A stretch of 64,000 bases of DNA from Nocardioides albertanoniae (GTDB taxonomy: Bacteria; Actinomycetota; Actinomycetes; Propionibacteriales; Nocardioidaceae), in contig NZ_VFOV01000001.1 in the NCBI RefSeq assembly GCF_006716315.1, positions 726,501 through 790,500 on the forward strand, in the 5' to 3' direction. Of this stretch, positions 54,839 to 64,000 are shown in pieces. The notes beneath the pieces were generated by a model. The model did no database searches and was not told where the DNA came from. It was given only the letters and a program-made list of their open reading frames with translations. A program made the position numbers and the translations under genes. Numbering within the stretch: the first letter of the stretch is position 1; each line of letters starts with the position of its first letter.

Positions 54839-55195
54839 GTGCCAGCCCGACTCAAGCCCGCGGCGGCCGCAGCCGTCGCCGATGCTCTCGACCGCGTACG
54901 CAACGGGGAGCAGGCCAAGGCCGACCTGCGGCTCCTGACCAAGCACTTCCTCGCCCTCCTCGAGGAGCGTGCACCGGGCAAGAGCGTGGAGGTCCGGGTG
55001 CCGCCCTACGCAGCGGTGCAGGTCATCGACGGCGTCAGGCACACCCGAGGCACTCCGCCGGCGGTGATCGAGACCGACGCGGCGACCTGGATCGCGCTCG
55101 CCACCGCCGAGCTGACCTGGGCAGAGGCCGTCGACAGCGCCCGGGTCCGCGCCTCGGGAGAGCGCACCGATCTCTCGGTCCATCTGCCCTTGTAA
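54839..55195 (+). CDS. Sterol-carrier-like (SCP) small protein
   Basis: 118 residues. It resembles actinobacterial SCP-like proteins such as the mycobacterial Rv0807/MSMEG_5817 type: VADALDRVRNGEQAKADLRLLTKHFLALLEE-like helices, then VEVRVPPYAAVQ and TPPAVIETDAATWIALATAEL strands. In mycobacteria this gene also lies near purL and purF, which supports the match. Such proteins bind lipids; the ligand here is unknown. The stop codon TAA overlaps the next gene's -10. Confidence 0.7.
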   Translation: MPARLKPAAAAAVADALDRVRNGEQAKADLRLLTKHFLALLEERAPGKSVEVRVPPYAAVQVIDGVRHTRGTPPAVIETDAATWIALATAELTWAEAVDSARVRASGERTDLSVHLPL

Positions 55196-55204: not shown

Positions 55205-56569
55205 ATGAGCAACTCCACCGAAGACATCAAGGCCCGGGTAAGCGAGCTCTTCCCCGGGATCCGCAAAGACCTCGAGGACCTGGTGCGCATCGAGTCGGTG
55301 AGCGCCGACCCCGAGCGCCTGAGCGAGGTGGAGAAGAGCGCGGAGAAGACCCACGCGCTCTTCGCCGCGGAGGGCTTCGACGTGGAGATCGTGCGCGCCT
55401 ACGACGGCGCCCCGCCCGCGATCGTGGGCGAGAAGAAGGGGCCGGAGGGTGCGCCGACGGTGCTGCTCTACGCCCACCACGACGTGCAGCCGGAGAACGA
55501 CCACGCCGACTGGGACACTCCGCCGTTCGAGCCGACCGAGGTCGGTGAGCGTCTCTACGGTCGCGGCGCGGCCGACGACAAGGCCGGCATCGCGGCCCAC
55601 GTCGGCGCGGTCCGGGCGCTGGCCGCTCTGGGCGAGAACGGTGAGCTGCCGGTGACGGTCCGACTCTTCATCGAGGGTGAGGAGGAGGTCGCCTCCGGCA
55701 CGCTCCCCGCGCTCCTGGAGAAGTTCAAGGACCGGCTCGAGGCCGACGTCATCGTCATCGCCGACTCCGGCAACTGGGACATCGGCGTGCCCGCGCTGAC
55801 CACCTCGCTGCGCGGCCTGATCCGCGTCGACGTCGCGCTGCGCACCTTGACCCACGCGGTCCACTCCGGCATGTGGGGCGGTCTGGCTCCCGACGCGATC
55901 ATGGCCCTCGTACGCCTCCTCGACACCCTCTGGGACGAAGACGGTGCGCCCGCGGTCGAGGGTCTGGTCAGCGGCACCGCGGCCGACGTCGACTACCCGG
56001 AGGAGCGGCTGCGTGCCGAGTCCGGGGCGATCGAGGCGCTGCAGTGGGTGGGCAAGGGATCGGCCGTCGAGCGGATGTGGACCCAGCCGGCGATCACGAT
56101 CACCGGCATCGACGCCCCCAAGGTCGATGGTGCCTCCAACACCCTCGCGGCGAGCGCACGCGCCAAGGTCACCATCCGGATCGCCCCGGGCGACTCCGGT
56201 GAGAACGCGGTCGCCGCCCTCACCAAGCACCTGGAGAAGCACGTTCCGTGGGGCGCCGAGCTGACCACCACGGTGGTCGACACCGGCGAGCCCATCGTCC
56301 TCGACGCGACCGGACCGGCCTACGACGCCGCCCGCGCGGCCTTCACCGAGGCCTGGGACGGCACCGCCCCCATCGACATGGGCGTGGGCGGATCGATCCC
56401 GTTCATCGCCGAGTTCCTCGAGGCGTTCCCGAAGGCGAGCGTGCTGGTCACCGGCGTCGAAGACCCCGACACCCGCGCCCACGGCGCCAACGAGGGTCTC
56501 CACCTCGCTGAGTTCGAGCGCGTCATCGTCGCCGAGGCACTGCTGCTCCAGAAGCTGGGACGCGGCTGA
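55205..56569 (+). CDS. M20-family dipeptidase
   Basis: 454 residues. Metal ligands are visible: LLYAHHDVQP (His, Asp), RGAADDKAG (bridging Asp), EGEEEV (catalytic and ligand Glu), and the downstream HSGMWGG. This PepV/carnosinase-like group cuts dipeptides or short N-acyl amino acids in the cytosol. The lid domain is complete. It follows the SCP gene by nine bases. Confidence 0.9.
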   Translation: MSNSTEDIKARVSELFPGIRKDLEDLVRIESVSADPERLSEVEKSAEKTHALFAAEGFDVEIVRAYDGAPPAIVGEKKGPEGAPTVLLYAHHDVQPENDHADWDTPPFEPTEVGERLYGRGAADDKAGIAAHVGAVRALAALGENGELPVTVRLFIEGEEEVASGTLPALLEKFKDRLEADVIVIADSGNWDIGVPALTTSLRGLIRVDVALRTLTHAVHSGMWGGLAPDAIMALVRLLDTLWDEDGAPAVEGLVSGTAADVDYPEERLRAESGAIEALQWVGKGSAVERMWTQPAITITGIDAPKVDGASNTLAASARAKVTIRIAPGDSGENAVAALTKHLEKHVPWGAELTTTVVDTGEPIVLDATGPAYDAARAAFTEAWDGTAPIDMGVGGSIPFIAEFLEAFPKASVLVTGVEDPDTRAHGANEGLHLAEFERVIVAEALLLQKLGRG

Positions 56570-56684: not shown

Positions 56685-58505
56685 CTACCCGACCCCGGGC
56701 AGAGTCAGCGCGACCCGGGTGCCGTTACCCGGGCTGGAGTCGAGTTCGACGAGCCCCTGGTGACGCCGGGTGATCTGTTCGACCAGGGTCATCCCGAGAC
56801 CGGCGCCGCGCGAGCCGCCGAGCGCGGAGTTGGAGCCTCGGTAGAACGCGTCGAAGACCTTCGAGTGCTCCTCGAGGTCGATCCCGACACCGGCGTCGGC
56901 GACGATGATGGTGACCTCGTTGCCGGCGCTGTAGAGCGTGACGTTCACCCGTGAGCCGCGGTGGCTGTAGGTCAGCGCGTTCTTCACCAGGTGTAGGAAG
57001 GCCGCCCGCAGCTCGCGCGGGTCGCCCCGGACGTACGCCGGTCCGGTCGGTGTCGTCAGGACACACTCGATGTCCTTGCGGGCGCCGTCGGGGTCGAGCT
57101 CGTCGAGCACGTCGTCGAGCATCTCGGAGACCTCGATGGTGGTCTCGCCGGGAGCGTTCGCCGGGTCGGCGACCCTCGAGAGCAGCAGCAGGTCGCCGAC
57201 GATGCCCTCGATCTGGGCGCTGCGCGCGGTGAGCGTCTCGACCTGCACGATCCACTGCAGGGTGTTGACGTGCTCGCTGCCCAGGGCGTTGAGCGAGGTG
57301 CCGAGCGCGGTGACCGGGATGCGGAGCTCGCGGGCGACCGCCTCGATCAGCCGGTTGCGCTCACGGTCGGCGTCGGCCAGCTGTTGGGCGAGGTCTCGCT
57401 CCTGCGTGTAGGCGTTCGCGGTGAGCACGATGCGCCCGAAGTCGCGGCCCAGCTCCAGCGCCAGCCGCCCCTCCGCGTCGCTCCACGTCGGGCGCCCGGG
57501 GGAGCGCAGCAGCACGATGTGACCCAGCCACTCGTAGTCGGCGCCGACCGGCACGACGAGCGCGCTCTCGGCCCCGAGGGTCTCGAAGAACTTGTCGGCG
57601 ACGGCAGCCTGGTCGTTCCACTCCGAGGAGTCGGTGATGCGCTGACGTCGCTGGATCGAGTAGGTGCCCTCGGCCCAGTAGCGGGCCGAGTTGCGTGAGG
57701 TGAGCGCGGCGAGGGCGGGGTCGGGATCCCAGTTGAGGCCCGGTGTGGAGTGCACGACCATCCGGCGGCCGGGGCCCTTGGTCGCCATCCAGATGCCATC
57801 GGCGTCGAGACCGCGGATCAACGCGTCGTGGCTGGCGTCGAGCACCTCGGCGAGGCTGAGCTTGGAGCTGGCGTCGCGCAGGAACTCCTTGGCCGTCTCG
57901 AGGTTGGCGGCACGCTCGAAGAGCTGCTCCCGCTCGAGATAGCCGAGCACGACCCGCTGGGCGCGCTTCGCGAACCGGTTGAGCACACGCCGATGGGTGA
58001 AGTCGGGCCGGTGCCCGCTGATCGGCATGTCGACCGAGAGGCAGCCCCGGATCTCGCCGTCGTCGTCGAGGATCGGCGCGATCAGCATGTCGTGGGGATG
58101 CCAGGCGTCGGAGGCGTTGATCATGTTGGTGGTGGCGATCCAGGTGCCCTCATGGAGATTGACCCGCTCGTGCGGGACGAACCGCCAGGCGCCCCAGTTC
58201 TCGCCCCGGGCGAGGTTGTCGCGCAGGTCGGAGAGGGCCCACCGGGTGCCGAGGATCTCCTCGGCGGTCTCGCGCTCCCCGTTGGCGTTGAGGGCGCTGA
58301 TCATGCCGTTGAGCGCGACCACCTCGAGCTGGTCGCCACGCACCACGTTGACCACGGCGATGCCGAACCCGAGGAGCTCGCAGATCCCCTCGGCGATCAT
58401 CTGGAGAGCGGGGTCCGCCACCGGTGTCACCTCAGGAGTCGTCGCCTGTCGACCCGACGTGCGCGGTGCTACGTCGAGGGCATCGGCTGACTGTGGTGGG
58501 GGCAT
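56685..58505 (-). CDS. GAF-domain histidine-kinase-like protein lacking the phospho-acceptor His (Arg)
   Basis: 606 residues from the ATG at 58505. An N-terminal GAF domain (ALQMIAEGICELLGFGIAVV) is followed by a second sensor region with LDADGIWMATKGPG and LGHIVLLRSPGRP, a helical dimerisation part, and an HATPase_c domain with N-box HLVKNALTYS, G1 DAGVGI and G2 RGAGLGM. In the H-box the usual His is Arg 392 (EAVARELRIPVTAL). It may bind ATP and dimerise but cannot autophosphorylate at that site. It is third of three tandem paralogues. Confidence 0.86.
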   Translation of the reverse strand: MPPPQSADALDVAPRTSGRQATTPEVTPVADPALQMIAEGICELLGFGIAVVNVVRGDQLEVVALNGMISALNANGERETAEEILGTRWALSDLRDNLARGENWGAWRFVPHERVNLHEGTWIATTNMINASDAWHPHDMLIAPILDDDGEIRGCLSVDMPISGHRPDFTHRRVLNRFAKRAQRVVLGYLEREQLFERAANLETAKEFLRDASSKLSLAEVLDASHDALIRGLDADGIWMATKGPGRRMVVHSTPGLNWDPDPALAALTSRNSARYWAEGTYSIQRRQRITDSSEWNDQAAVADKFFETLGAESALVVPVGADYEWLGHIVLLRSPGRPTWSDAEGRLALELGRDFGRIVLTANAYTQERDLAQQLADADRERNRLIEAVARELRIPVTALGTSLNALGSEHVNTLQWIVQVETLTARSAQIEGIVGDLLLLSRVADPANAPGETTIEVSEMLDDVLDELDPDGARKDIECVLTTPTGPAYVRGDPRELRAAFLHLVKNALTYSHRGSRVNVTLYSAGNEVTIIVADAGVGIDLEEHSKVFDAFYRGSNSALGGSRGAGLGMTLVEQITRRHQGLVELDSSPGNGTRVALTLPGVG

Positions 58506-58593
58506 CCTTGCTCTCGGGTCAGGCTGGCATGTGTGTTGCAACAACGTGGCAGTCTTGAGGATCGTGGCACCACGGAGTGTTGCACGAATACCC

Positions 58594-58636
58594 CAACCTG
58601 TGCAGGTGTGCGTCACAGTCTCGACCAGATTGTGAC
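58594..58636. promoter_or_regulatory. Shared operator-like motif and hairpin before HK-like gene 1
   Basis: CAACCTGTGCAGGTG at 58594-58608 resembles the palindrome at 60511-60526, before the next paralogue. A near-perfect 10-bp hairpin (58612-58621 with 58627-58636) lies just upstream in the transcript direction and may end the preceding mRNA. Confidence 0.5.
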
Positions 58637-58649
58637 AAGCCGTTAGGGA

Positions 58650-60485
58650 TCAGTAGACGCGGCCGAGCGGGAGCACCAGGGAGACGCGGGTGCCCGTGCC
58701 GGGCTCGGAACGCAGCGTGACGCGGCCGTCGTGCCGGCGGGCGACCCGGTCGACGATGCTGAGGCCGAGCCCGACGCCCTTCCGGCCGCCGACCGCCTTG
58801 CTGGTGCCGCGGTAGAACTCGGTGAAGATCTGCAGCTGTTCGGCCGCAGGGATGCCGACCCCGTTGTCGGCCACCGAGACCGCCACCTCGTTCGCGCTGG
58901 CCACGAGGTAGAGCCGCACCCGGCCACCGCGGTGGGTGTAGACCAGCGCGTTGTCGACCAGCCTGAGGATCGCCGCTTTGAGCTCGCTGCGGTCACCCAT
59001 CACCGCGACGTCGTGGTTCGGCACGTCGAGACTGACCTCGATGCCACGCTTCTCCGCCTCGTACGTCCGCTGCTCGTGGACCTCCTCGAGCAGCGAGGAC
59101 AGGTTGACGTAGGTGAGCGTCGGCCGGGAGGACGGATCGGAGAAGCGGGAGAAGAGGAGCAGGTCGTCGACCATCGAGACGAGCTGGTCGGACCGGCTGA
59201 TCAGGTTGCCGACCTGCTGGAACCAGGTCGGCGAGCCGCGCTCCTCGTGACCGATGGCGTTGATGCCGGTGGTGAGCGCGGTGAGCGGGTAGCGCAGCTC
59301 CTGCGCGACCGACTCGATGAGCCGGCTGTGCACCTTGTCGGCAGTGGCGAGGCGCTCGGCCAGGTCGCGCTCGCGCGTGTAGGCGTTGGAGGTGAGCACG
59401 ATGCGGCCGAAGTCGCGGCCGAACTCCATCGCGAGGCGCCCCTCGGCGTCGGTCCAGCGGGGACGTCCGGCGCTGCGCAGCAGCACGAGATGGCCCAGCG
59501 AGGTGGTCTCGACCCCGATCGGCACGACCAGGAGCGAGTCGGCTCCGACCGAGTCGAGGAACTCGATGCCGAAGACGGCGAACTTGCGCCGCTCCGGATC
59601 ACGGTGGTCGCGCAGGCGCACGAGCAGGTCGCGGTTGACGATCGCGTGCTGTCCCTCTCGCCACAGGTTCGAGTCACGGTAGGACTGGCCCGCGGCGAGC
59701 GCGTGCTCGCTGGGGTCCCAGTTGACGCCGGGAGAGGCGTACGCCACGGCCGCGCCGTCGCCGTCGTCGGTCTGCACGTAGAGGCCGTCGGCGTCCAGAC
59801 CGCGGCTCATCGCGTCGTGCGCCGCCTCCAGCACACCGGTGAGACCGAGCTGGGAGTTGGCCTCGCGCAAGAAGGCCTGGGCCTCGAGCAGGTTGTTGGC
59901 TCGCTCCTCCAGGTATTCGCGGTGCAGCGTCAGCAGCACGGCCCGCTTGGCCTGGCGGGCGAACCGGTTCAGGATGCGCTGCTGTCGCCGTCCCGGCCGA
60001 TGGCCGCTGAGCGGGCGGTCGACGGAGAGCACGCCGACGAGCTCGCCGTCCTCGTCGTAGAAGGGTGCGAGCAGCTCATCGAGCCGGTGCCAGTCCTCCG
60101 GACGCTTCATCAGGTCTTCGTCGGTGTCGGGCACCCAGTAGCCCTCGGCCTCCCCGATGGTGTTCTTCTCGTGCGGGACGAACTTGATGTCGCCCCAGTC
60201 CACCGACATCTCCAGCAGGTCGGTGACCACCGAGACCGGGAACCGGGTGCCGAGCATCTCCGAGACCGTCGTCTCGCTGCCGGCGGTGCGTCCGATCTCG
60301 TCGCCGGTCGCCGCGACGATCTCGAACTCGTCACCTCGCCTGATGTTGATGACCGCCGCGCCGAAGCCGACCAGCTGGGTCACCCCTTCGGCGATCAGCT
60401 GCAGCCCAGGATCCGGAGCTGCGTACGCCTCGTCGCCGGACGCGCCGCGTGGCGCGTCCGGTCGCTGAGGAGGCGTGCTGGTCAT
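58650..60485 (-). CDS. GAF-domain histidine-kinase-like protein lacking the phospho-acceptor His (Gln)
   Basis: 611 residues, ATG at 60485 with GGAG upstream. Domain order is as in its neighbours: GAF (LQLIAEGVTQLVGFGAAVI), second sensor domain, dimerisation helices, HATPase_c. In the H-box the His is Gln 395 (ESVAQELRYPLTAL). The ATP boxes are intact: RLVDNALVYTH, DNGVGI, KGVGLGLSIV. Sequence similarity to gene 1 is strong throughout, so the two arose by duplication. Confidence 0.86.
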   Translation of the reverse strand: MTSTPPQRPDAPRGASGDEAYAAPDPGLQLIAEGVTQLVGFGAAVINIRRGDEFEIVAATGDEIGRTAGSETTVSEMLGTRFPVSVVTDLLEMSVDWGDIKFVPHEKNTIGEAEGYWVPDTDEDLMKRPEDWHRLDELLAPFYDEDGELVGVLSVDRPLSGHRPGRRQQRILNRFARQAKRAVLLTLHREYLEERANNLLEAQAFLREANSQLGLTGVLEAAHDAMSRGLDADGLYVQTDDGDGAAVAYASPGVNWDPSEHALAAGQSYRDSNLWREGQHAIVNRDLLVRLRDHRDPERRKFAVFGIEFLDSVGADSLLVVPIGVETTSLGHLVLLRSAGRPRWTDAEGRLAMEFGRDFGRIVLTSNAYTRERDLAERLATADKVHSRLIESVAQELRYPLTALTTGINAIGHEERGSPTWFQQVGNLISRSDQLVSMVDDLLLFSRFSDPSSRPTLTYVNLSSLLEEVHEQRTYEAEKRGIEVSLDVPNHDVAVMGDRSELKAAILRLVDNALVYTHRGGRVRLYLVASANEVAVSVADNGVGIPAAEQLQIFTEFYRGTSKAVGGRKGVGLGLSIVDRVARRHDGRVTLRSEPGTGTRVSLVLPLGRVY

Positions 60486-60510
60486 GGGTTCTCCGCCGAG
60501 ATCGAATCTG

Positions 60511-60526
60511 CAACCTGTTACAGGTG
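60511..60526. promoter_or_regulatory. Palindromic motif before HK-like gene 2
   Basis: CAACCTGTTACAGGTG contains the 13-bp palindrome ACCTGT-T-ACAGGT. It sits 25 bases upstream of the start at 60485 and matches the motif before gene 1. Confidence 0.55.
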
Positions 60527-60533
60527 CACAAGG

Positions 60534-62426
60534 TTAAACAATGGGCAAGGTCACACGGAACGTGCTTCCTGAGCCAGGGGCTGAATCGACCGAGATCAGA
60601 CCGCCGGAACGACCGACGATCCGCGACACGATGGTCAGGCCGAGCCCGGTGCCCGGCTGCTTGAGAGCAGTGGGGTTCGTCGAGCGGAAGAACTCGGTGA
60701 AGAGACGATCCTGGTCGTCGGGGGAGATGCCGAGGCCCTGGTCGGTCACCCTGAGCTCGAACCAGGCGGGGCTGGTGCGTGTGCTGACGGTGACCTGGCC
60801 GCCCTCGGGGCTGTATTTGATCGCGTTGGTGACCAGGTTGATCAGCACGCGGTCGAGGTCGCCGGGGGCCATGGTCACGTAGACGTCGTCGGGCGGCATG
60901 TCGAAGACGAGCTCGTGGCTGTCGTTGGGCGGGGCCTCGGCGCTCAGCTGGCTGTGCACCTCGGAGAGCACGTGCGCGACCTGGACGGGCTCGGTCGTCG
61001 GCAGGTGGTCGGGGTCGGAGACCTTCGACAGGGTCGCGAGGTCGGCCACGATCTTCTCGGTGCGGTCACGGTTGCGCGTGAGCGCGGTCAGCACCTCGGC
61101 GTACTCCTCCTCCGACTCCGCGTAGGGCAGCGACTCGATGTTCCAGCGGAACGCGGAGAGGGGGTTCTTCAGCTCGTGGGCGACCGTCGCGATGAGCCGG
61201 CTCTTGTGGGCCTCGAGCTCGCGCAGGGAGTCGACCGCGGCCCGCTGACGCAGGTAGGCCCGGGAGTTGTGGACGACACGACCGAAGTCGCGCCCGAGGT
61301 CGGCGGCGGTGATCAGCTCGAGCTCGCTCCAGTGGGGCTTGTCGGTGCCGCGGCACAGCAGCATCGCTCCGTACCAGGTCTGGCCGGAGCCGATCGGCAC
61401 ACCGACGACCGAGCCGAGCGGGTGGCGCTGGATCCACTCGGTGATGGCCGCCTGGGCCTCCGGGTCGGGGTGGGGCAGGCGCTCGGCGCCGTCGCGGGTC
61501 TGCACCGTGATGCTGCGCTGCTCCCACAGGTAGCGCCCGTAGTCGACCATGAACTGCACGTTGGTCAGGTCTTCGATCGGGAGCTTGAACTCCTCGCGGT
61601 AGACCTTCGTGCGGATGCCCTTGCCGCCCGGCTTGGACAGGTGCAGCCAGAAGTCGGTCAGGTCGAGCACGTCGACCAGCCCGGTGCTCAGCGAGTTGAG
61701 GATCTCGTCGGGGTCGAGCTCGCGCCCGGCGCGGCGGATCACGTCGCGAGCGGCCTCCGCGAGGCGTACCTGCTCGGAGAGCTCCTCGCGCTCGAGGGCG
61801 AGCAGGATCGCGCGCTGAGCCTGCACCGCGTGGCGGCTCAGGATGGCGCGCTTCTCGGCGTCGGGCCGACGGCCGTCGCTGGGGAGGTCGACCATGAACG
61901 TCCCGCGCAGACGTCCGCTCTCGTCGCGCAACGGTGCGACCAGGAGGTCGAGCGGATCCCAGGCGCCGGACTCGTTGAGCCGCTCGCGGTTGGAGGTCCA
62001 GCCGACCTCGGCGTCGGTGTCGTCGCGACGCTCGGCGGGCACGAACATGAAGATCCCCCAGTCGTCGGCGCGAGACAGGTCGCGCTCGAGCTGGGAGAGG
62101 GGCGTGGAGAGGCCGTGGAGCTTCTCCCGTGCCGCCTCGGGGCCGGAGACGACGGCGACGTGCAGGCGGTTGTCGGGGCGCGCGATGCTGATCGTGGCGG
62201 CCTCGAAACCGGCCAGAGCGGTCAGGCTGTCGGCGATGAGCTGGAGGTCGGAGAGATCCTCACCATCGGTGAGGAGACCACCCATCTCGGCGAGATCGGT
62301 GGTGATCGTCGTCATCGTCGTGGTGAAGTCGCTTCTGGCGCGGCCGCCGCCCAGTGGAGGCGGAGCGAATCCCGGCGGCACCGTCAGTCGGTGACCACCG
62401 GCGGGCTGGGGCGCTGAAGAAGTCAT
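60534..62426 (-). CDS. GAF-domain sensor histidine kinase (intact H-box)
   Basis: 630 residues from the ATG at 62426. GAF domain (LQLIADSLTALAGFEAATI), second sensor domain (ILNSLSTGLVDVLDLTDFWL, then VVGVPIGSGQTWYGAML), HisKA with the phospho-acceptor His 417 in ATVAHELKNPLSAF, and HATPase_c (NLVTNAIKYS, DQGLGI, GTGLGLTIV). It is first in a three-gene set and the only one with a complete H-box. No transmembrane helices are seen, so it is a cytosolic sensor. No response-regulator gene is nearby. It is divergent from purF. Confidence 0.9.
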   Translation of the reverse strand: MTSSAPQPAGGHRLTVPPGFAPPPLGGGRARSDFTTTMTTITTDLAEMGGLLTDGEDLSDLQLIADSLTALAGFEAATISIARPDNRLHVAVVSGPEAAREKLHGLSTPLSQLERDLSRADDWGIFMFVPAERRDDTDAEVGWTSNRERLNESGAWDPLDLLVAPLRDESGRLRGTFMVDLPSDGRRPDAEKRAILSRHAVQAQRAILLALEREELSEQVRLAEAARDVIRRAGRELDPDEILNSLSTGLVDVLDLTDFWLHLSKPGGKGIRTKVYREEFKLPIEDLTNVQFMVDYGRYLWEQRSITVQTRDGAERLPHPDPEAQAAITEWIQRHPLGSVVGVPIGSGQTWYGAMLLCRGTDKPHWSELELITAADLGRDFGRVVHNSRAYLRQRAAVDSLRELEAHKSRLIATVAHELKNPLSAFRWNIESLPYAESEEEYAEVLTALTRNRDRTEKIVADLATLSKVSDPDHLPTTEPVQVAHVLSEVHSQLSAEAPPNDSHELVFDMPPDDVYVTMAPGDLDRVLINLVTNAIKYSPEGGQVTVSTRTSPAWFELRVTDQGLGISPDDQDRLFTEFFRSTNPTALKQPGTGLGLTIVSRIVGRSGGLISVDSAPGSGSTFRVTLPIV

Positions 62427-62439
62427 CGGGTCGATTATC
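62427..62439 (-). promoter_or_regulatory. Leaderless-type -10 of the intact kinase
   Basis: GATAAT on the - strand (62439-62434) is followed by seven bases and the ATG at 62426. Between this promoter and the purF promoter, the region 62440-62563 has no gene. Confidence 0.5.
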
Positions 62440-62563
62440 CGGGATGAACTGGTCGGACGGTAGGGCGGACGTGGATAAGTCTTTGCATTCATGATCCCGA
62501 GTCGTTCATGTGACCACCCTTACAGGGCTGTCAAGGGTTTGGGCGATCGCCTGCGTCCGCCCG

Positions 62564-62576: not shown

Positions 62577-64000
62577 GTGGTCAACCTCACCAGCTCAGGT
62601 AGGCACGTGTCCCGACGCAAGGGTGGCGATGGCCGGCTCACCGCCGCCCTCGACCCCCACGACCAGGGTCCCCAGGACCACTGCGGGGTCTTCGGTGTGT
62701 GGGCGCCGGGCGAGGACGTCGCGAAGCTGACGTACTTCGGCCTGTACGCGCTGCAGCACCGTGGCCAGGAGTCGGCGGGCATCGCTGTCAGCAACGGGCG
62801 CCAGATCCTGGTCTACAAAGACATGGGCCTGGTCAGCCAGGTCTTCGACGAGCCGACCCTCGAGTCGCTCAAGGGGCACGTCGCCATCGGCCACGCGCGC
62901 TACTCCACCACCGGTGCCTCGGTGTGGGAGAACGCGCAGCCGATCTTCAAGCCGACGCCCAACGGCTCCGTCGCGCTCGGTCACAACGGCAACCTGATCA
63001 ACGTCGCGGCGATGCGTACGGCCGCGGAGAAGCTGCCCGAGCACTCCGAGGGGCGCCGTGCGCCGGTCTCCACCAACGACACCTCGCTGCTCACCGAGCT
63101 GCTCGCCTACCACCCCGACTCCTCGCTGGAGGACCGGGCGCTGGAGGTGCTGCCGACCATCACCGGCGCCTTCTCGCTGGTGTGGATGAACGAGGACACC
63201 CTCTTCGCCGCCCGTGACCCGCAGGGCATCCGCCCGCTGGTGCTGGGCCGCCTCGACCGCGGCTGGGTGGTCGCCTCCGAGGACGCCGCGCTGGCCACCG
63301 TCGGCGCCTCCGTCGTCCGTGAGGTAGAGCCCGGCGAGATGATCGTCATCGACGAGTCCGGGCTGCGCTCGGTGAAGTTCGCCGAGCCCGACCGCAAGGG
63401 CTGCGTCTTCGAGTACGTCTACCTGGCCCGGCCCGATGCCAACATCGCCGGCCGCAACGTGCACGAGTCGCGCGTCGAGATGGGCCGCGAGCTTGCTCGT
63501 GAGTACCCCGTCGACGCCGACCTGGTCATCCCGGTGCCCGAGTCCGGCATCCCCGCCGCCACCGGCTACGCCCTGGAGAGCGGCCTGCCGTTCGGCCAGG
63601 CGTTCGTGAAGAACGGCTACGTGGGGCGTACGTTCATCCAGCCGTCGCAGACGCTGCGCCAGCTCGGCATCCGGCTCAAGCTCAACGTGCTCGAGCACAT
63701 GGTGCGCGGCAAGAAGATCGTCGTGGTCGACGACTCGATCGTGCGTGGCAACACCCAGCGCGCCCAGGTGCGGATGCTGCGCGAGGCGGGCGCCCTGGAG
63801 GTCCACGTGCGGATCTCCTCGCCGCCGGTGAAGTGGCCGTGCTTCTACGGCATCGACTTCGCCACCCGCGCCGAGCTGATCGCCAACGGCCTCTCGGTCG
63901 ACGAGATCGCCGCGTCGGTCGGTGCCGACTCGCTGGGCTACATCTCGATCGACGGGATGATCTCGGCGACCCGCCAGGAGCCCTCCACCCTGTGTGCAGC
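62577..64000 (+). CDS. purF: Amidophosphoribosyltransferase (3' end beyond window)
   Basis: About 474 residues are visible. PurF starts purine synthesis by making phosphoribosylamine from PRPP and glutamine. A propeptide of 35 residues precedes Cys 36 in DHCGVFGVW, which becomes the N-terminal nucleophile after cleavage. RGQESAGIAVS, HARYSTTG, HNGNLIN and TNDTSLL are N-domain hallmarks, and VVVDDSIVRGNT is the PRPP loop. Cysteines in PVKWPCFYGIDF and near the end (STLCA) match iron-sulfur ligands of Bacillus-type PurF. GTG start; the coding frame is open to the edge. Confidence 0.97.
   Translation, partial: MVNLTSSGRHVSRRKGGDGRLTAALDPHDQGPQDHCGVFGVWAPGEDVAKLTYFGLYALQHRGQESAGIAVSNGRQILVYKDMGLVSQVFDEPTLESLKGHVAIGHARYSTTGASVWENAQPIFKPTPNGSVALGHNGNLINVAAMRTAAEKLPEHSEGRRAPVSTNDTSLLTELLAYHPDSSLEDRALEVLPTITGAFSLVWMNEDTLFAARDPQGIRPLVLGRLDRGWVVASEDAALATVGASVVREVEPGEMIVIDESGLRSVKFAEPDRKGCVFEYVYLARPDANIAGRNVHESRVEMGRELAREYPVDADLVIPVPESGIPAATGYALESGLPFGQAFVKNGYVGRTFIQPSQTLRQLGIRLKLNVLEHMVRGKKIVVVDDSIVRGNTQRAQVRMLREAGALEVHVRISSPPVKWPCFYGIDFATRAELIANGLSVDEIAASVGADSLGYISIDGMISATRQEPSTLCA

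Follow-up and report, generated by a model that had tools for sequence, protein, structure and literature searches.

A tandem of three genes in Nocardioides albertanoniae appears to combine one working cytosolic histidine kinase of the GAF type with two long-established pseudo-histidine kinases. The genes lie on the minus strand of a 64,000-nt stretch of the 4.97-Mb genome, positions 726501-790500 of NZ_VFOV01000001.1, which we call the window and whose own numbering is used below; gene 1 is at 60534..62492, gene 2 at 58650..60485 and gene 3 at 56685..58616. Gene 1 has the phospho-acceptor histidine, and genes 2 and 3 have glutamine and arginine in its place, together with fixed changes in the nucleotide site. 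In the reading that we prefer, and in which our confidence is evenly balanced, gene 1 would be the sole phosphodonor, and genes 2 and 3 would sense signals as pseudokinases and modulate gene 1, probably by forming heterodimers with it.

Acceptor site

The three genes had been predicted as GAF-histidine kinases from the DNA alone, and this was borne out: the open reading frames are found where they had been placed, and all three products match GAF, HisKA and HATPase_c (Pfam). The codons given for the acceptor position were also correct, reading on the minus strand CAC in gene 1 (61176..61178, the phospho-acceptor His), CAG in gene 2 (59301..59303, Gln) and CGC in gene 3 (57330..57332, Arg), and the latter two are each one base away from a His codon. 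The H-boxes are at 61158-61184 in gene 1 (HELKNP), 59283-59309 in gene 2 (QELRYP) and 57312-57338 in gene 3 (RELRIP). Scores against HisKA (PF00512) are 38.4 bits for gene 1 and 28.2 bits for gene 2, both above the Pfam cut-off of 26.9, and 21.5 bits (E 0.00025) for gene 3, which is below it; HATPase_c is above its cut-off in all three. Genes 2 and 3 are about 48-49% identical to each other, and either is 32-34% identical to gene 1.

A profile built from the three genes was searched against 215 Nocardioides genomes, five candidates being scored per genome. The full trio was present in 9 of the 215, and among these candidates no partial trio was seen at comparable scores. The conserved co-occurrence that the original prediction had put forward as a check was found, the three genes standing together in all nine genomes that hold them. 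Its other check, that homologues keep Gln and Arg, came out fully for gene 3 and with exceptions for gene 2: gene 1 has His in 9/9 genomes and gene 3 Arg in 9/9, and gene 2 has Gln in 8/9 and Leu in the ninth. The H-box Glu at +1 and Pro at +5 are present in all 27 genes of the nine trios. Six loci with named organisms, which overlap in part with the nine trio genomes (N. sp. YR527, N. luteus twice, N. turkmenicus, N. albus and one metagenome-assembled genome), are H/Q/R without exception. In the protein database, whose relatives overlap with the genome sets, the orthologues of gene 3 have Arg in 17/17 and those of gene 2 Gln in 8/9, and for gene 1 the 120 relatives listed, of 296 matches, all have His.

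The ninth database orthologue of gene 2, the metagenomic protein P0021, has His. In the tree described below it lies inside the Gln group as sister of the window's gene 2 (support 99/99), and by its placement its His looks like a reversion or a sequencing error rather than the ancestral state. The His of P0021 and the Leu of one genome imply that no particular residue is required in gene 2, where Gln may not be obligatory.

In the count given in PMC12632262, the His is absent from 0.9% of HisKA domains (722/76,471). The other HisKA matches above cut-off in this genome all have it (14/14, the weak match L166 left out), and two His-less kinases here are more than chance. Sequence error or recent decay was considered and rejected, since the non-His states are conserved across orthologues and the ratio of nonsynonymous to synonymous substitution (dN/dS) is low. 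An alternative acceptor in gene 2 was rejected as well; a His three residues further on (ELH) is present in 8/9 genomes, and the window's own gene 2 has Arg at that spot, so this His is no general substitute.

ATP-site motifs and phosphatase position

All three genes had been said to keep their N-, G1- and G2-boxes. For most of the site this is right: when the motif columns of genes 2 and 3 were tabulated for the nine trio genomes (n=18), the second N-box Asn, the G1 Asp and Gly, the F-box Arg and the G2 Gly were intact in 18/18. It does not hold for the rest of the N-box, whose first Asn is replaced in 18/18, by Arg in gene 2 and by His in gene 3, and whose Lys is replaced by Val or Thr, again in 18/18. 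The N-boxes read NLVTNAIKYS in gene 1 (60810-60839), RLVDNALVYT in gene 2 (58935-58964) and HLVKNALTYS in gene 3 (56964-56993); in the same order, G1 is at 60723-60749, 58848-58874 and 56877-56903, and G2 at 60627-60653, 58752-58778 and 56781-56807. Gene 1 of the trios keeps the N-box Lys in 9/9, and no defect was seen in its motifs. His-bearing relatives have the Lys in 93/95 cases at loci beside purF (trio gene 1 apart), 39/39 elsewhere and 120/120 in the database, or 252/254 when these three sets, which overlap, are pooled. A 584-aa GAF-HisKA protein from the database, P0046, was left out of the counts; it has Arg at the acceptor position, degenerate N, G1 and G2 boxes, and a HATPase_c match under the Pfam cut-off.

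Judged from these motifs, genes 2 and 3 are more than His-less, their nucleotide site being altered in a fixed manner, and they are less likely to be ATP-binding, phosphate-donating partners because two N-box residues are lost. The picture of one active kinase with two ATP-binding, non-phosphorylatable partners, as first drawn, agrees with the conserved non-His states and is weakened in its ATP-binding donor part by the N-box losses.

It could still be imagined that genes 2 and 3 use their catalytic and ATP-binding (CA) domains to bind ATP and to phosphorylate gene 1 on its His across a mixed dimer. This seems improbable to us, as the N-box Lys, which we take to contact the ATP phosphates as in PhoQ and HK853, is gone in 18/18 together with the first Asn. 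On the other side, the second Asn, G1, the F-box Arg and G2 are intact, the CA domains are under purifying selection, and a donor of this kind has been suggested in FasB, whose kinase domain is proposed to phosphorylate FasC (PMC12675982).

That genes 2 and 3 are phosphatase subunits, dephosphorylating a regulator which gene 1 has phosphorylated, is equally improbable. At the +4 position, where Asn or Thr is presumably the phosphatase residue in this kinase family, gene 2 has Asn in 7/9 genomes and so keeps ExxN in these, but the residue of gene 2 is Tyr in the window's genome and Ser in one further genome, and gene 3 has Ile in 9/9. The loss of the His itself cuts both ways, being described in PMC12632262 as a residue that is not essential for the phosphatase activity of HisKA kinases but does contribute to the reaction.

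Selection and age of the non-histidine state

The reading frames are open in 9/9 trio genomes. Median dN/dS, estimated by NG86 from 36 pairs per gene and only rough as absolute values with this simple method at high GC, was 0.148, 0.182 and 0.220 for the full genes 1, 2 and 3. Divided into sensor, DHp and CA, the medians were 0.175/0.042/0.116 in gene 1, whose DHp is the most constrained part of the trio, 0.212/0.130/0.125 in gene 2 and 0.230/0.216/0.186 in gene 3, a range of 0.04-0.23 over all domains. Genes 2 and 3 show at the sequence level what defines a pseudo-histidine kinase: the fold is kept, kinase residues are lost, and selection is purifying.

These values also bear on the thought that genes 2 and 3 are redundant duplicates slowly heading for loss. 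Such decay would go with the varying acceptor residue of gene 2 (Q, L, H) and with the somewhat faster evolution of genes 2 and 3, mean dN being 0.062 and 0.068 as compared to 0.045 for gene 1. With open frames in 9/9, dN/dS far under 1 in each of the domains, N-box substitutions that are fixed and deep relatives carrying the same kind of defects, we find it very hard to believe.

The deep relatives are eight database proteins, 42%-55% identical to gene 3 (P0018, P0027, P0028 and P0030-P0034), five with Arg and three with Ser at the acceptor position. They fall together with genes 2 and 3 (support 100/100), and P0021 is the sole His row there, in a tree built from 25 of 46 database proteins, 16 array rows (from three trio genomes and the genomes G206 and G005, which are taken up below) and 8 others. 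Because genes 2 and 3 are in a single group with the other non-His relatives (R, S), the non-His state would most simply be an old one in this group, older than the species. When P0031 was searched against 341 genomes of the family at E<=1e-105, only the nine trio genomes matched, through genes 2 and 3 themselves. Conserved pseudokinase roles of genes 2 and 3 appear likely, since the non-His state and most of the ATP motifs persist, selection on these genes is purifying, and the trio occurs as a set.

Proposed working and comparison with known systems

In the preferred reading gene 1 alone would be phosphorylated, on its canonical His, and would hand the phosphate on to an unlinked response regulator. 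For their part, genes 2 and 3 would have kept the folds of the GAF sensor, the DHp dimerisation helices and the nucleotide pocket after losing the acceptor His and the N-box Asn and Lys, and they would most likely pair with gene 1 via the DHp helices to form heterodimers. Whatever they themselves bind in the GAF regions and nucleotide pockets could then raise or lower the kinase/phosphatase balance of gene 1. Modulation of gene 1 seems the simplest role for genes 2 and 3, because their folds are under selection and gene 1 is present in each trio. The mixed-dimer account is also a reasonable one by analogy with FasB-FasC, HrrS-ChrS and RetS-GacS.

No named system with such a layout was known to the original prediction, and in this it went somewhat too far: in 2025, FasB and FasC of group A Streptococcus, two adjacent kinases, were proposed to act as a heterodimer with one defective partner (PMC12675982). 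As presented in that source, these are two adjacent kinase-like genes with one partner a proposed pseudokinase, two-hybrid data favour hetero- and not homodimers, and H246 of FasC is needed. The Fas proteins are, however, membrane proteins, two in number, and their operon includes a response regulator, whereas the trio has three kinases and none was found at its loci; moreover FasC, the proposed pseudokinase, holds the His and has a dispensable CA domain (PMC12675982), which is opposite to what is seen in genes 2 and 3. The trio resembles FasB and FasC in its adjacent genes and single source of His, but no defect was seen in gene 1, and its defects are not complementary in the FasBC sense.

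RetS and GacS are hybrid kinases and are unlinked. In Pseudomonas aeruginosa one of these kinases inhibits the other via a heterodimer, which is the likeness to the trio proposed here, but RetS is also described as receiving phosphate from GacS (PMC12189002). HrrS and ChrS of Corynebacterium glutamicum are paralogous actinobacterial kinases whose native forms heterodimerise, and an inactive ChrS is reported to alter signalling; this ChrS carries a laboratory-evolved CA frameshift and not a natural His loss, and in the two-hybrid results given there the truncated form was not seen in heterodimers (PMC9491836).

The main rival is an account in which genes 2 and 3 homodimerise and bind a regulator, possibly phosphorylated, or another kinase, acting as sensors or scaffolds outside the gene 1 dimers in the manner of DivL of Caulobacter. 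We regard it as unlikely. DivL is encoded alone, is membrane-bound with PAS domains, and acts on proteins encoded elsewhere, whereas the pseudokinases here stand in tandem with a His-bearing relative in 9/9 genomes. DivL also differs in having Tyr at the acceptor position, where genes 2 and 3 have Gln/Leu and Arg, and in coming from a host of a different phylum. The account is favoured by the DHp residues E(+1) and P(+5), intact in 18/18 of genes 2 and 3, and by what is described of DivL itself: a HisKA-type protein with a weak nucleotide site and conserved signalling without kinase activity, which despite Tyr for His binds DivK~P by its docking face and has neither kinase nor phosphatase activity (PMC4211667).

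Several points weigh against our preferred reading. The heterodimers are a proposal, and genes 2 and 3 could instead be separate homodimers. The role given to the N-box Lys is carried over from solved kinases. P0021 may owe its His to a reversion or a sequencing error, or it may show that the acceptor position is free, and the tie of His loss to the number of kinases, which is described below, rests on two lineages at most.

Sensor regions, neighbouring genes and response regulators

All three proteins had been described as cytosolic with two GAF regions, which is plausible from their sequences but not proved. Of GAF stretches, Pfam finds a single one in gene 1 and two each in genes 2 and 3. 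The 19-residue hydropathy maxima are 1.38, 1.73 and 1.85 for genes 1, 2 and 3, so that the latter two exceed a common transmembrane threshold of about 1.6. The maximum of gene 2 falls within a Pfam GAF, and those of genes 1 and 3 sit in the N-terminal region that we read as a first GAF.

Gene 2 begins 48 bp after gene 1. The first start in the reading frame of gene 3 is a GTG at 58616, which leaves a gap of 33 bp after gene 2; numbering the acceptor as Arg 392 implies an ATG at 58505 and a larger gap. Gene 1 is divergent from purF, which has its first start on the plus strand at 62577 and runs past the window end (62577..64000), followed outside the window by purM. An M20 peptidase gene (55205..56569, plus strand), convergent with gene 3, is the boundary of the syntenic block; a gene for an SCP_3 protein (54839..55195, plus strand) is also part of this boundary. 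A PurL-like gene is present in the window at a greater distance. A scan for promoters and terminators gave no usable result.

The window holds no response regulator, as had been noted: none of the 46 Response_reg matches (Pfam) of the genome is within 726501-790500, and the nearest is about 10 kb past the window end, beside a weak HATPase match of its own. The three kinases fill the interval between purF and the M20 peptidase gene in the nine trio loci, and no receiver domain was found in these with a home-made four-row profile, a weak screen used outside the window and with one row (L146) in the wrong frame. A regulator follows the kinases in 1/82 purF loci; it is of the OmpR/PhoB type (L103:688-1377, minus strand), directly after the second kinase in genome G224, where the M20 peptidase was not found. 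It was not accepted as a partner, as the protein most like it in the window's genome shares only 50% identity and stands beside a kinase of its own, and its relatives in the next best genomes, G138 and G177, are on other contigs than the purF kinase. Five regulators of the N. albertanoniae genome have no HATPase match within 10 kb (genome positions 3189013, 2190444, 3665579, 3715058 and 4549261), and none of them was tied to the trio. The first of these (C1:3189013; L250:774-1403, minus strand) has an ANTAR domain.

The purF locus across the genus

The arrangement of purF, kinases and M20 peptidase recurs in Nocardioides with one to four kinases. From the genus list, in which 181/215 genomes matched, 121 loci of 120 genomes were chosen, and kinases were counted at E<=1e-30, a limit that weaker or broken kinases escape. 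purF was present in 82 of the 121 fetched stretches, usually adjoining a kinase, and these 82 loci had one kinase in 52 cases, two in 19, three in 10 and four in 1. Where a locus has one or two kinases, every kinase has His (71 loci, 90 kinases), and each of the 11 loci with three or more holds at least one non-His kinase; these are the nine trios, G206 and G005. Non-His kinases are found among purF loci only where there are three or more (11/11 vs 0/71), an association for which the Fisher test ignores kinship, so that its value means little as a probability. The 39 loci without purF in the stretch have 39 kinases, all with His, and in other genera of the family His was present at 9/9 loci.

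At some loci with two kinases, other genes separate these by about 3 kb. By our own reading of C-terminal letters, 11 of 16 kinase-kinase or kinase-M20 stretches have open reading frames that resemble molybdenum-hydroxylase subunits (L101, L106, L107, L108, L112, L120, L125, L126, L187, L207 and L223), and 4 of the 16 have a PucR-like end.

In G206 the kinase next to purF has Arg (L143:7295-9073, minus strand) in an array that reads Arg, His, His, His from purF, and in G005 it has Gly (L169:4940-6931, plus strand) in an array of Gly, His, His. These two kinases are 62% identical, and their N-box and ATP-site motifs are intact. Because of the intact N-box they are, as far as the motifs tell, a different type of pseudokinase, with the His gone and the catalytic motifs whole, and donation of phosphate across a mixed dimer would suit them better than genes 2 and 3. 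Two independent losses of the His were considered and are not established. The best trees part G206 and G005 from genes 2 and 3, but a joint placement is not rejected (AU p 0.254 with 50 rows and 0.117 with 49 rows, the groups having been named after the trees were seen). The deep forks of the 50-row tree have a modest support of 84/93, and its rows were taken from a 124-row tree that gave a long-branch warning.

Few pseudo-histidine kinases are known to have been studied, and most of these are single genes. They and kinase heterodimers are in themselves already known. No paper on this locus was found in the literature searched, which was mostly open-access and rarely searched by genus or by purF, nor any on a trio in which two His-less members are under selection, on the loss in the N-box, or on a link between kinase number and His loss here. 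The syntenic locus in 82/120 genomes makes one to four paralogues comparable, with the His lost at different positions. It lets one ask what effect a His-less kinase has on a working neighbour, and whether duplication permits the loss of catalysis. As a tentative possibility, the purF-linked kinases may be a hetero-oligomer family in which any one paralogue can carry the phospho-acceptor. In the N. luteus group it is the gene next to purF that has the His, both partners being non-His, and in G206 and G005 this is reversed, the neighbours having His. If this is true, the genus would hold a natural series that starts from homodimers and leads to obligate hetero-oligomers, in which some subunits are dedicated to signal input.

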